DNA from: Microvirga lenta | GTDB lineage: Bacteria > Pseudomonadota > Alphaproteobacteria > Rhizobiales > Beijerinckiaceae | Assembly: GCF_020532555.1 (NCBI RefSeq) | Contig: NZ_JAJBBR010000013.1 | Location: 1 to 64,000, forward strand | DNA: 64,000 bases | Direction of reading: 5' to 3' | In this document: piece after piece, positions 18,325-56,160 of the stretch | Layout: each line of letters opens with the position of its first letter | Position numbering within the stretch: the stretch's first letter is position 1 | Made by a program: the position numbers and the translations under genes | The notes under the pieces: model-generated | What the model was told of the DNA's origin: nothing | Seen by the model: the letters and a program-made list of their open reading frames with translations, nothing else | Database searches by the model: none

Positions 18325-19392
18325 ATGATCGCGCCCATGCAACCGTCCTCCCTGCTCCAATCCCTCGTCGGAGACGACGAGATCGAGGCGCTTCTTTCCG
18401 GTGAGGCCGAGCTCCGGGCCATGCTTCGGGTGGAAGCGGCCCTGGCTTCGGCGGAGGCGGAGGCCGGTCTCATCGAACGAGGGGCGGCGGACCGGATCTC
18501 GGAAATCTGCGCCGTATTCGAGCCGGATTGGAAGGGACTGTCGCGTGGGCTGGCTCAGGATGGCGTTGTCGTTCCCGAGTTCGTGAGGCAGCTGCGTTCC
18601 GCAGTCGGCGAGCCTCATGCGAAATCGGTGCATGTGGGGGCAACGAGCCAGGACGTCATCGACACGGCTCTGATCCTGCGGCTCAAGAACATCATGGAGT
18701 TGTACCTGCGCCGTCTCGAACATCTCATCCAGGCGATGCAGGTGCTCAAGGTTCGCGACGGTGCCGTGCGTCTCATGGCCCATACGCGGATGCAGCAGGC
18801 ACTGCCCTTCACGGCCGCCGACAAGATCGAGACCTGGCTCAGCCCCCTCGAAAGGCATCGGGAGACGCTGCAGGCGCTCATGCCGCGTCTGCTGGTGCTT
18901 CAGCTCGGCGGTCCGGTCGGCACCCGCGCCGAGCTGAAGGGGCATGGCGCTGCCATTGCCGACGCCATGGCGAGGCAGCTCGGACTCGGCTCCGTTCCCG
19001 CGTGGCATTCGCAGCGGGATCGGATCGGCGAGTTCGCCTCCTGGCTCTCTCTCCTCTCAGGGACATTGGGCAAGATCGGACAGGACGTTGCCCTGATGGC
19101 GCAGAACGAGGTGAGAGAGGTGCGCCTCGCAGTTGGCGGAGGCTCGTCCGCCATGCCTCACAAGTCCAACCCGGTTTCCGCCGAGGTGCTCGTCACGCTC
19201 GCCCGCTTCAATGCAGGCCTGCTCGGCACGCTCCATCAGGCCCTCGTCCACGAAAATGAGCGCTCGGGAGCCGCCTGGACCCTTGAATGGCTCGTGCTGC
19301 CTCAGATGCTGGTGGCGTGCGGGGCAGGCCTGAACATGGCCCGGGGGCTCATCGAGGGACTCACGTTCCTGCCGTCGGAAACCGGAAGATAG
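18325..19392 (+). CDS. pcaB: 3-carboxy-cis,cis-muconate cycloisomerase
   Basis: PcaB converts 3-carboxy-cis,cis-muconate to gamma-carboxymuconolactone, between PcaHG and PcaC. It belongs to the fumarase/aspartase superfamily and shows the signature GSSAMPHKSNP plus the HVGATSQDVIDT segment. At 355 residues it is shorter than the roughly 450-residue bacterial enzymes and matches the shorter alphaproteobacterial form. A second in-frame ATG at 18337 is an alternative start. It is the final gene of the importer-pca operon. Confidence 0.92.
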   Translation: MIAPMQPSSLLQSLVGDDEIEALLSGEAELRAMLRVEAALASAEAEAGLIERGAADRISEICAVFEPDWKGLSRGLAQDGVVVPEFVRQLRSAVGEPHAKSVHVGATSQDVIDTALILRLKNIMELYLRRLEHLIQAMQVLKVRDGAVRLMAHTRMQQALPFTAADKIETWLSPLERHRETLQALMPRLLVLQLGGPVGTRAELKGHGAAIADAMARQLGLGSVPAWHSQRDRIGEFASWLSLLSGTLGKIGQDVALMAQNEVREVRLAVGGGSSAMPHKSNPVSAEVLVTLARFNAGLLGTLHQALVHENERSGAAWTLEWLVLPQMLVACGAGLNMARGLIEGLTFLPSETGR

Positions 19393-48251: not shown

Positions 48252-49133
48252 ATGTCGCGTGAAACCTCGGGCCTGCTCCTGGGCTTCGTGGGCGTGTGCA
48301 TCTTCGCCGGCACGCTCCCCTTCACCCATCTCGCCGTCGAGTTTCTCAGCCCGCTTTTCGTGACGGCCGGCCGGGCGGCGGTGGCGGGGCTTCTGGCCGG
48401 GACGACGCTGCTGCTTCTGCGCAAGCCCTGGCCGGAGAGAAGACAGGTGGGGACGCTGGCGCTCGTCGCCTTGTGCCTCGTCGGAGGCTTCCCGGGATTC
48501 ACTGCGCTTGCGATGCAGAGCGTGCCCGCCTCGCATGGGGGCGTCGTCCTGGGCATCCTGCCGCTCGCCACCTCCGCCATCAGCGCCCTCATCGCCGGGG
48601 AGCGGCCGAGCCCGGCCTTCTGGGCAGCCGCCGTGGCCGGTGCGGCCCTGGTCGTCGGGTTCACGCTGTACGAGGGAGGCGGCTCCCTGGGGAAGGGCGA
48701 CCTCTACCTTCTGGCAGCCGCCCTGACCTCCGCCCTCGGCTACGTCCTGTCCGGAAAGCTCGTCCGCAGCGGCTATGCCGGATGGGAGGTCATTTCCTGG
48801 GTTCTCGTGGTGGCCCTTCCGGCCACGATTCCCCTGGCCCTCTGGACCATGCCGGCCACGCCTGCGGCCGTTCCGGCCTGGAGCTGGATCGGCTTCGCCT
48901 ACGTCGCGCTCATGAGCCAGTATCTCGGCTTCTTTGCCTGGAACGCCGGCCTGGCCCTCGGCGGGATTGCCCATGTGAGCCAGGTTCAGCTGCTGCAGAC
49001 CTTCATCACCCTGATCTTCGCGGCGCTTCTCAACCGGGAGCCCATCGAGCCGACAGCGTGGCTCGTCGCCACCGGGGTGTTCGTCCTGGTCCTGATGGCG
49101 CAACGGGCCAAGGTGGTCCGCAGAAAGGGGTGA
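48252..49133 (+). CDS. EamA/DMT-superfamily transporter
   Basis: A 293-residue membrane protein with about ten hydrophobic helices and two EamA repeats (residues 5-140 and 150-288), typical of drug/metabolite or amino-acid exporters of the RhaT/YdcZ kind. It begins 9 bp after amn and is probably co-transcribed. The substrate is unknown. Confidence 0.85.
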   Translation: MSRETSGLLLGFVGVCIFAGTLPFTHLAVEFLSPLFVTAGRAAVAGLLAGTTLLLLRKPWPERRQVGTLALVALCLVGGFPGFTALAMQSVPASHGGVVLGILPLATSAISALIAGERPSPAFWAAAVAGAALVVGFTLYEGGGSLGKGDLYLLAAALTSALGYVLSGKLVRSGYAGWEVISWVLVVALPATIPLALWTMPATPAAVPAWSWIGFAYVALMSQYLGFFAWNAGLALGGIAHVSQVQLLQTFITLIFAALLNREPIEPTAWLVATGVFVLVLMAQRAKVVRRKG

Positions 49134-49161
49134 GGATCCGCTTGCCGCGCGCTTACGATGA

Positions 49162-49185
49162 AGATATAAACATATCTTTATATGT
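49162..49185. promoter_or_regulatory. Two overlapping 16-bp inverted repeats, probable operator of the ArsR-methyltransferase regulator
   Basis: AGATAT-AAAC-ATATCT (49162-49177) and ACATAT-CTTT-ATATGT (49170-49185) are both perfect 6-4-6 inverted repeats, offset by 8 bp and sharing the central half-site. They form an AT island in otherwise GC-rich DNA, 18 bp before the GTG of the regulator gene, and look like tandem dimer sites for an ArsR-type repressor that also blocks the promoter. Confidence 0.75.
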
Positions 49186-49202
49186 GAGAGCGAGATTTGG
49201 CT

Positions 49203-50216
49203 GTGACCGATTCTGCGTCCCCGTCTCTTGATACGACCCTGAACGTGCTGCGGGCTGCGGCCGAGGAAACGCGCATGCGGATCCTGGCTCTTCTCACGGA
49301 GGGCGAGCTTTCGGTGTCGGACCTCACCGATATCCTCGGCCAGTCCCAGCCCAGGATTTCCCGTCATCTGAAGCTTCTAGTCGAGGCCGGCCTCGTGGAG
49401 CGCCACCGCGAAGGGGCCTGGGCCTTCTTCCGCTTGACGGACCGGGGACCGGCCCTGAGCATCCTCCGCCCGATGCTGGACAGCCTCGACCGATCGGATC
49501 CGCAACTGCTGGAGGACCGCACCCGGCTGCAGACCGTTCGCGAGCAGCGTGCCCAGGCGGCTCAGGCCTTCTTCTCCCGCCTTGCTCCCGATTGGGACCG
49601 CATCCGGTCGCTCCATGCTCCCGAGGCGGTTGTCGAGGCGGCCGTGGTGGACGCCCTCGGGTCGAAGCCGATCGTCAATCTCGTCGATCTCGGCACCGGC
49701 ACCGGCCGAATGCTGCAGCTGCTGGCGCCGCGCGCGCTGCGGACAGTCGGGCTCGATGCCAGCCACGCCATGCTTTCCGTGGCGCGGGCGAACCTGGAAA
49801 AGGCCGGGCTCTCGCGGATCGAACTCCGGCAGGGGGACATCTATGCGCCTCCGTTCCCGCGCGACACGTTCGATCTCGTCGTCATCCATCAGGTGCTGCA
49901 CTATCTCGACGATCCGGCCCGGGCGATCCGCGAGGCGGCCCGTCTCGTCGCTCCCGGCGGGCGCATCCTGGTAGTGGATTTCGCGCCCCACAATCTCGAG
50001 TTCCTGCGCGAGGCTCAGGCCCACCGCCGTCTCGGCTTTGCGCCCGAGCAGGTCTCCACCTGGCTCGATGAATCGGGCCTCGACTGCACGCTCACGCGGG
50101 ATGTCGCGCCGCAAAAGAAGGCCGGCGAGCAGCTGGTCGTTTCCCTTTGGCTCGGCCAGGATCGCCGCGTGGCGACGGATTGGCCTCTGATCGAATCCAA
50201 CAAAGAGGTTGCCTGA
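49203..50216 (+). CDS. ArsR-type HTH / SAM-dependent methyltransferase fusion regulator (SahR-like)
   Basis: The 337-residue protein has an N-terminal ArsR winged helix (residues 10-90, MRILALLTEGELSVSDL ... QSQPRISRHLKLL) and a C-terminal class I methyltransferase domain (LVDLGTGTGRML, LVVIHQVLHYLDDP, VAPGGRILVVDF). It heads a metF-metH unit. Fusions of this type include SahR, a repressor of methionine-cycle genes that senses S-adenosylhomocysteine; equivalence is inferred from architecture and location. GTG at 49203 is preferred over TTG at 49197 by ribosome-site spacing. The stop overlaps metF (TGATG). Confidence 0.85.
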   Translation: MTDSASPSLDTTLNVLRAAAEETRMRILALLTEGELSVSDLTDILGQSQPRISRHLKLLVEAGLVERHREGAWAFFRLTDRGPALSILRPMLDSLDRSDPQLLEDRTRLQTVREQRAQAAQAFFSRLAPDWDRIRSLHAPEAVVEAAVVDALGSKPIVNLVDLGTGTGRMLQLLAPRALRTVGLDASHAMLSVARANLEKAGLSRIELRQGDIYAPPFPRDTFDLVVIHQVLHYLDDPARAIREAARLVAPGGRILVVDFAPHNLEFLREAQAHRRLGFAPEQVSTWLDESGLDCTLTRDVAPQKKAGEQLVVSLWLGQDRRVATDWPLIESNKEVA

Positions 50217-51120
50217 TGTCGCCGCTCACGCTCCGCCCCAGCCGGCAGGACACCTGTTCGATCCGAGTCTCGTTCGAGTTCTTCCCGCCCAAGACTCCGG
50301 AGATGGAGGCCACGCTCTGGTCCTCCATCGAGCGTCTGGCCCCCTCGATCCGCAATTCGTCTCCGTCACGTACGGCGCCGGCGGCTCGACCCGCGAGCGG
50401 ACCCACGCCACGGTGTCCCGCCTCGTGCGCGAAACGGCGCTGAAGCCCGCCGCGCACCTCACCTGCGTGGCGGCCACCAAGGAAGAGGTGAACGACGTCG
50501 TCCGCTCCTATTGGGAGGCAGGCGTCCGCCATGTCGTGGCCCTGCGCGGCGACCCGGTCGGCGGGCTCGGCACGACTTACGTGCCCCATCCGGGCGGTTA
50601 TCAGCAGGCCTGCGACCTCGTGTCGGCGATCAAATCCATCGGCGACTTCGAGGTGTCGGTCTCGGCCTATCCGGAGAAGCATCCCGAGGCTTCGTCCCTC
50701 GATGCCGACATCGACGCCCTGAAGGCCAAGGTCGATTGCGGCGCCGACCGCGCGATCACGCAGTTCTTCTTCGATAACGACCACTACTTCCGCTATCTCG
50801 ACCGCGTCCGGGCGCGGGGCATCGACATTCCCATCGTTCCCGGCATCGTTCCCGTCCAGAACTTCAAGCAGACCGCGAATTTCGCCGCCAAGGCGGGCGC
50901 CACCATTCCGGCATGGCTCGCTGCGCGGTTCGACGGTCTCGACAACGACGTGGACACGCGGAAGCTCATCGCCGCCGCCGTCGCCGCCGAGCAGGTGATC
51001 GATCTCGTGGACCGGGGCGTCAGCGAGTTCCACTTCTACACCATGAACCGCGCGGACCTGGTCTACGCGATCTGCCACCTGCTGGGATTGCGCGACCACG
51101 CCGTGAAAGTGGCAGCCTGA
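50216..51120 (+). pseudogene. metF: 5,10-methylenetetrahydrofolate reductase, apparent one-base frameshift
   Basis: MetF makes 5-methyl-THF for MetH. The ATG at 50216 starts a correct MetF N-terminus (VSFEFFPPKTPEMEATLW, IERLAP), but after the C-run at 50340-50344 the frame is lost; the family sequence resumes in the +2-shifted frame as LDPQFVSVTYGAGGSTRERTH and continues intact to the TGA at 51118-51120. Adding one C to the run restores a continuous protein of about 301 residues. Everything else (ALRGDP, ITQFFF, FHFYTMNRA) is conserved, so a sequencing error, or a very recent mutation, is likely. A TTG at 50209 could start the second frame but would lose the normal N-terminus. Confidence 0.85.
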
Positions 51121-51168
51121 TCATTCTGCGACGTGCCGGACCGTGCGGTCATGGCGAAAGAAAAGAAA

Positions 51169-54924
<3,756 letters not shown>

Positions 54925-54931
54925 CCTCCGG

Positions 54932-56160
<1,229 letters not shown>

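Follow-up and report, generated by a model that had tools for sequence, protein, structure and literature searches.

Results

We found that metF, the gene for the enzyme that makes 5-methyl-THF, is split by a one-base frame break in the window (the whole 64,000-nucleotide stretch of DNA that was analysed), and we consider it likely that this is a real and recent loss of the gene, one instance of a pattern that recurs in Microvirga and does not extend to the tested control genes. A lone frameshift of this kind is ordinary; what stands out is the pattern of five different breaks described below.

The metF reading frame is interrupted at a run of five Cs

The index genome (G000) comprises 4.5 Mb in 33 contigs, and its metF, whose nearest named relatives are from Microvirga, is carried on a contig of 170 kb. 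A regulator gene, metF and metH lie there in one direction, over positions 49197-54924, with the following features:

49197-50216, plus strand: sahR-like gene for an ArsR-type regulator fused to a methyltransferase-like domain; intact, matching PF01022 and PF08241
50216-50344, plus strand: 5' part of metF in the frame of the ATG, with the SFEFFPP motif; family match, motif aligned with the MetF structure 1zp3
50340-50344, plus strand: run of five Cs, place of the one-base loss; from the sequence and the comparison with relatives
50344-51120, plus strand: remainder of metF in the -1 frame, without an internal stop; family match, TIGR00676
50345-50443, plus strand: out-of-frame extension of the metF ATG frame; stop TGA at 50441-50443
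51154-54924, plus strand: metH, cobalamin-dependent methionine synthase, intact; above the cut-offs of TIGR02082 and NF007024, start approximate

Read from the ATG at 50216, metF follows the family sequence (MSPLTLRPSRQ...VSFEFFPPKTPEMEATLWSSIERLAP) up to the five Cs at 50340-50344, which form the sole C or G run of at least five within the gene. The family sequence then resumes in the -1 frame (LDPQFVSVTYGAGG...) and continues through the TGA at 51118-51120, and the ATG frame itself runs for 75 codons before a stop at 50441. When the whole genome was searched for the family, MTHFR positions 8-37 matched one frame at 50252-50341 and positions 39-287 matched the other at 50344-51087, with PF02219 E-values of 6.8e-07 for the 5' piece and 1.7e-82 for the tail; at E <= 0.001, this search returned no third MTHFR match. 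The tail by itself scores 315.5 bits against a TIGR00676 cut-off of 293.7. The PF02219 domain is thus divided between two frames, and no single open frame holds it complete. All 29 relatives that were aligned at the C run have one net base more than the index metF. A preliminary description of this DNA had placed a metF frameshift at the five-C run and had proposed comparison with relatives; the frameshift was borne out by the switch of the family sequence to the -1 frame and its continuation to the normal stop, and the relatives agree. The lesion is absent from close relatives and the genome carries no second copy of the gene, as expected of a loss of function.

The SFEFFPP motif was identified by aligning a relative's MetF with a solved MetF (residues 14-294 of the intact MetF of G017 align with 1zp3), and it sits in the 5' piece, which is 43 residues long. 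We take its glutamate to be the catalytic Glu28 of E. coli MetF. Because this residue is in the 43-residue piece and the remainder of the protein is in another frame, MetF is in all likelihood dead in the index strain. An alternative start in the tail frame, TTG at 50209 (303 aa), was rejected as a repair: it exchanges the motif-bearing N-terminus for unrelated sequence. No direct repeats were found inside metF.

The metF ATG at 50216 overlaps the stop of the upstream regulator gene (TGATG; regulator gene end, 49197-50218), which may couple translation of metF to that of its likely regulator. The name SahR for the gene at 49197-50216 is our assumption, drawn from its architecture and position. 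The available part of a study of such regulators lists metF and metH within SahR regulons of Proteobacteria (PMC4239095).

Five different lesions break metF in Microvirga

We searched 48 Microvirga genomes, one per species, and found metF whole in 42, split in five and cut by a contig end in one, so that 47 could be judged and five events counted. The genome with the cut gene (G062) was rejected as a sixth loss: its contig terminates inside metF. The five lesions are all different:

Index (G000): -1, C lost from the C run at 50340-50344
G018: +1 base in a G run
G023: -1 base at a short CCCGG stretch
G010: -4 bases
G016: exact 83-bp tandem duplication, 83 not being a multiple of three

Three of the five (index, G018 and G023) are one-base changes, such as can arise in sequencing or polishing. 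The other two, of 4 bp and 83 bp, are hard to explain as base-call errors.

In a midpoint-rooted FastTree phylogeny of 47 genomes, built from the regulator gene and the 5' part of metH, G010, G016 and G023 fall in separate parts of the tree. G000 lies near G018, but its closest neighbour is the intact G068, and the G000 and G018 lesions differ. These placements, together with the differing lesions, therefore point to five separate events. With lesions masked, dN/dS against the nearest intact relative has a median of 0.080 (0.057-0.117) for the five broken metF genes and of 0.061 (0.023-0.110) for the 42 intact ones, and the two ranges overlap. With no clear further decay in the broken genes, the losses therefore look recent on the scale of species divergence, and are perhaps as recent as cultivation.

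We also inspected the 80 best-scoring of 584 named loci, and metF was in one frame in all 80; a best-scoring set favours whole genes, and these loci were left out as a control. The gap between the metF and metH matches is 585 bases in G016 (L256) and 581 bases in G070 (L193), as compared to 24-310 bases in the other 46 genomes.

Neighbouring and methionine genes remain in frame

The control genes present a different picture. A single full-length metH match, in one frame, was found in 48 of 48 Microvirga genomes, and the regulator (sahR) was in one frame in 47 of 47. For the metX-like gene, 47 of 48 genomes gave a full-length match and the remaining one, an assembly of 780 contigs, a partial match; none of these matches attains the curated cut-off of its family (the best reaches 486.9 of 500 bits), and the gene's identity as metX is likely.

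As a neighbour control we followed nine genes, the regulator and metH among them, in metF neighbourhoods of 12 to 20 kb taken from 46 relatives and from the window itself. Of 423 gene instances, 8 partial and 57 absent ones were left out, and one of the 358 assessable instances was split (G064). Two of 11 neighbour models had been dropped, g10 with in-frame stops in 28 genomes and g11 present in 29 of 47; no split was seen in either, and with both included the control stands at 1 of 393. In-frame stops in metH (G014, G071 and G029) and in neighbour g3 (four genomes) were rejected as splits: they occur within the first 20 model residues, ahead of where the gene probably starts. With the window's protein as the reference, metH was free of stops in G014, G016, G071 and G029. 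The lone split neighbour (L223 of G064, 18481-19244) is a gene of 255 aa about 8 kb from metF, found in two frames in a genome of 6 contigs.

The index genome was left out of the main test because it had been chosen for its break. Among the remaining genomes, metF was broken in 4 of 46 and neighbours in 1 of 358 instances (Fisher p = 6.8e-4, this and the other Fisher tests treating genomes as independent); inclusion of the index genome gave p = 9.5e-5. The 4-bp and 83-bp lesions only, at 2 of 46 versus 1 of 358, amount to a weak excess (p = 0.035). By length, the chance that all four non-index breaks among metF, the regulator, metH and metX would fall in metF is 3e-4, or 4e-5 with the index genome included. 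Set against the controls, these five lesions in 47 genomes have the form of a recurrent, gene-specific loss, a signal that is weak on the two multi-base lesions alone.

Among other genera of the family, 344 of the 352 genomes searched have a metF match. Twelve genomes outside Microvirga with weak or doubtful matches were inspected in detail, and three of them carry metF as two or three pieces in different frames on one contig (L198 of G366, L203 of G307 and L202 of G408); G307 and G408 are fragmented genomes with two metF breaks each and are possibly error-prone. The comparison of 4 of 46 in Microvirga with at least 3 of 344 in other genera, in which strong double matches are left unresolved, gives p = 0.0046. 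The tendency of metF to break may not be confined to Microvirga.

No other frame break is found among the comparable ORFs of the contig

We compared the 170-kb contig with the syntenic stretch of a close relative (G017, 210 kb), in which 59 reference ORFs had a homologue. Two frame-break candidates emerged: metF, and a second at about 37.1 kb of the contig. The second was rejected, since it is a spacer that separates two intact genes, through which the reference ORF had been read. In-frame stops in four contig ORFs were likewise rejected, being located in a 5' extension, at a gene end or in ORFs that are probably not genes. Two further contigs were compared for synteny (the C26 stretch was not syntenic, C24 was), and neither entered the counts.

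These results bear on whether the strain actually has six Cs and a working metF, its break being a base-call or assembly error, as the preliminary description had offered among its options. This we judge unlikely, though it carries appreciable weight: the difference is a single base inside a homopolymer, all of the sequence downstream of the C run is intact and conserved, and to that extent the single base here could be wrong. However, the contig holds 216 C or G runs of at least five, so that an error-prone assembly would show more breaks, and metF is the sole one among the 59 comparable ORFs. Moreover, metF is broken in four other genomes in which the control genes are unbroken, and an error at this site would account for neither the loss of 4 bp nor the exact duplication of 83 bp in other genomes. 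That three of the five lesions are one-base changes tells somewhat against a real loss and in favour of an error. The same description had also suggested an on/off switch, in which changes of the run between five and six Cs would switch MetF within the population. The lesion does sit at the only C or G run of at least five in metF, and slippage is its likely mutational mechanism, but the switch itself appears very improbable and did not survive the comparison: a six-C run is found at the site in only 1 of 46 relatives, the other four lesions are elsewhere in metF, and none of the 216 runs on the contig goes with another break in the 59 ORFs. Known slippage switches use longer runs, and five or six bases are short for a switch; a long repeat tract kept among relatives, by which phase variation would be recognized, is likewise missing, with five Cs here and six in a single relative. 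Most improbable of all is a programmed -1 ribosomal frameshift that would join the two metF halves into one MetF. In its favour, the tail does lie in the -1 frame, and within the run a CCC codon could slip back by one base and pair again. The arrangement is not conserved, however: metF is in a single frame in 42 of the 47 judged genomes of the genus, and in the other four with a broken gene the break is elsewhere, one of these breaks being an 83-bp duplication that does not fit such a mechanism. GGCCCCC is not, to our knowledge, a usual slippery heptamer. No Rfam family was found at gathering score in 48500-55500, a null that says little because few frameshift signals are in Rfam.

The evidence thus favours a real loss. 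Most likely, slippage shortened six Cs to five in the sole copy of metF, and the index break would be one of five independent, recent metF inactivations among the 47 Microvirga genomes. The strain would then be unable to make 5-methyl-THF via MetF and would rely on methionine from outside or on a methyl donor whose use does not require MetF. Loss would be favoured or tolerated for metF in particular, because metH, a target four times larger, is unhit. Of the options in the preliminary description, real loss with MetH kept is the best supported, since four other Microvirga have unrelated frame-breaking metF lesions while metH, sahR and the metX-like gene stay in frame; the methionine dependence that it named is something we infer. 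A broader account would invoke plain relaxed selection, under which the whole methionine pathway decays in a methionine-rich medium or in consortia and metF is hit by chance. This is possible but doubtful. The apparently recent losses comprise several kinds of mutation, and a 2026 preprint, in the part available, reports genome models that predict methionine dependence of Microvirga in myxobacterial consortia (PMC12919014). That part attributes the dependence to the absence of metA and of assimilatory sulfate reduction and not to metF, a word with 0 occurrences in the text; GapMind did not agree with the prediction. Against decay of the whole pathway, metH (3.8 kb), sahR and the metX-like gene, which are the methionine genes tested, show no frame break in 47-48 genomes each. 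On this account metH should have been hit about four times as often as metF, and the concentration of 4 of 4 non-index breaks in metF has the low length-based chance given above.

Possible routes to methionine and a possible advantage of losing MetF

Without a bypass of MetF, the strain would need methionine. Several proteins encoded in the genome could conceivably provide one. It has a relative of PF02574 homocysteine methyltransferases that scores 46.2 bits against a cut-off of 338 for the betaine enzyme and 61.7 against a cut-off of 215 for the general homocysteine methyltransferase equivalog, a PRK06520-group MetE-like protein (558.6 bits), and two GcvT-family proteins, of which one is YgfZ-like. 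By analogy, the MetE-like, homocysteine-methyltransferase-like and GcvT proteins could act as a MetF bypass, and the PRK06520-type gene in particular could be relevant to strains that lack MetF. This gene, at L153 16361-17464 (contig C29 of G000, about 31.4-32.5 kb), adjoins ORFs that by eye resemble those for ABC transport.

A more specific and tentative proposal is that selection has repeatedly favoured metF loss in Microvirga because it lets cells escape a methylfolate trap. In the accessible portions of the literature, the MTHFR step is described as irreversible in vivo, such that a blocked MetH locks folate as 5-methyl-THF (PMC5070874), and nitrous oxide is described as inhibiting MetH-reliant bacteria, which methionine rescues (PMC13059711). 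Microvirga seem to depend on the B12-requiring MetH, the index genome having only one weak match to the MetE catalytic domain. A shortage of cobalt or B12 might limit MetH, and so might nitrous oxide released by nearby denitrifiers. MetF would then keep sending folate to a dead end, and with methionine present, cells without MetF would win. That metF is broken and metH and metX are not would fit such a trap, because losing metH or metX would not help.

Discussion

The five different metF breaks, with the other tested methionine genes intact, suggest a specific pressure on 5-methyl-THF synthesis, either in soil or during laboratory handling. If the pressure acts in soil, it bears on methionine dependence among soil bacteria. 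If it arises from laboratory handling, some sequenced Microvirga strains would be laboratory auxotrophs, with consequences for species descriptions and metabolic models. In a limited set of literature, searched for metF together with Microvirga, frameshift or pseudogene, experimental evolution and methionine auxotrophy, we found no reports of recurrent metF loss in these bacteria; for patient isolates of Burkholderia, changes in metF are mentioned in the available parts of two papers.

Models for methionine synthesis independent of MetF are available from other systems. According to the accessible parts of these reports, MesD/MesX allow other bacteria to make methionine without MetF (PMC7857596), and Bmt makes methionine from betaine in vitro (PMC12366255). 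The index genome has candidates of a related kind in its PF02574 relative and its PRK06520 MetE-like protein. Unlike Bmt and the homocysteine methyltransferases, however, the PF02574 protein lies far below the cut-offs of the named enzymes, and, as compared to MesD, the PRK06520 protein is MetE-like by group membership only.

The bacterial methylfolate trap, as set out in the available text of PMC5070874, in which the word "metF" has 0 occurrences, offers a second point of comparison: the trap should be averted by losing metF but not by losing metH or metX.

With respect to its own family, both pieces of the index metF are members of the MetF/MTHFR family (PF02219, TIGR00676); what sets the index gene apart is the lack of a single open frame joining the SFEFFPP motif to the rest of the barrel. 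Finally, the pattern across Microvirga resembles that of genes lost recurrently in isolates, of which we take rpoS in E. coli stocks to be an example. The likeness lies in null lesions that are independent, diverse and recent, with whole neighbours; the difference is that the gene lost in Microvirga encodes a one-carbon enzyme.
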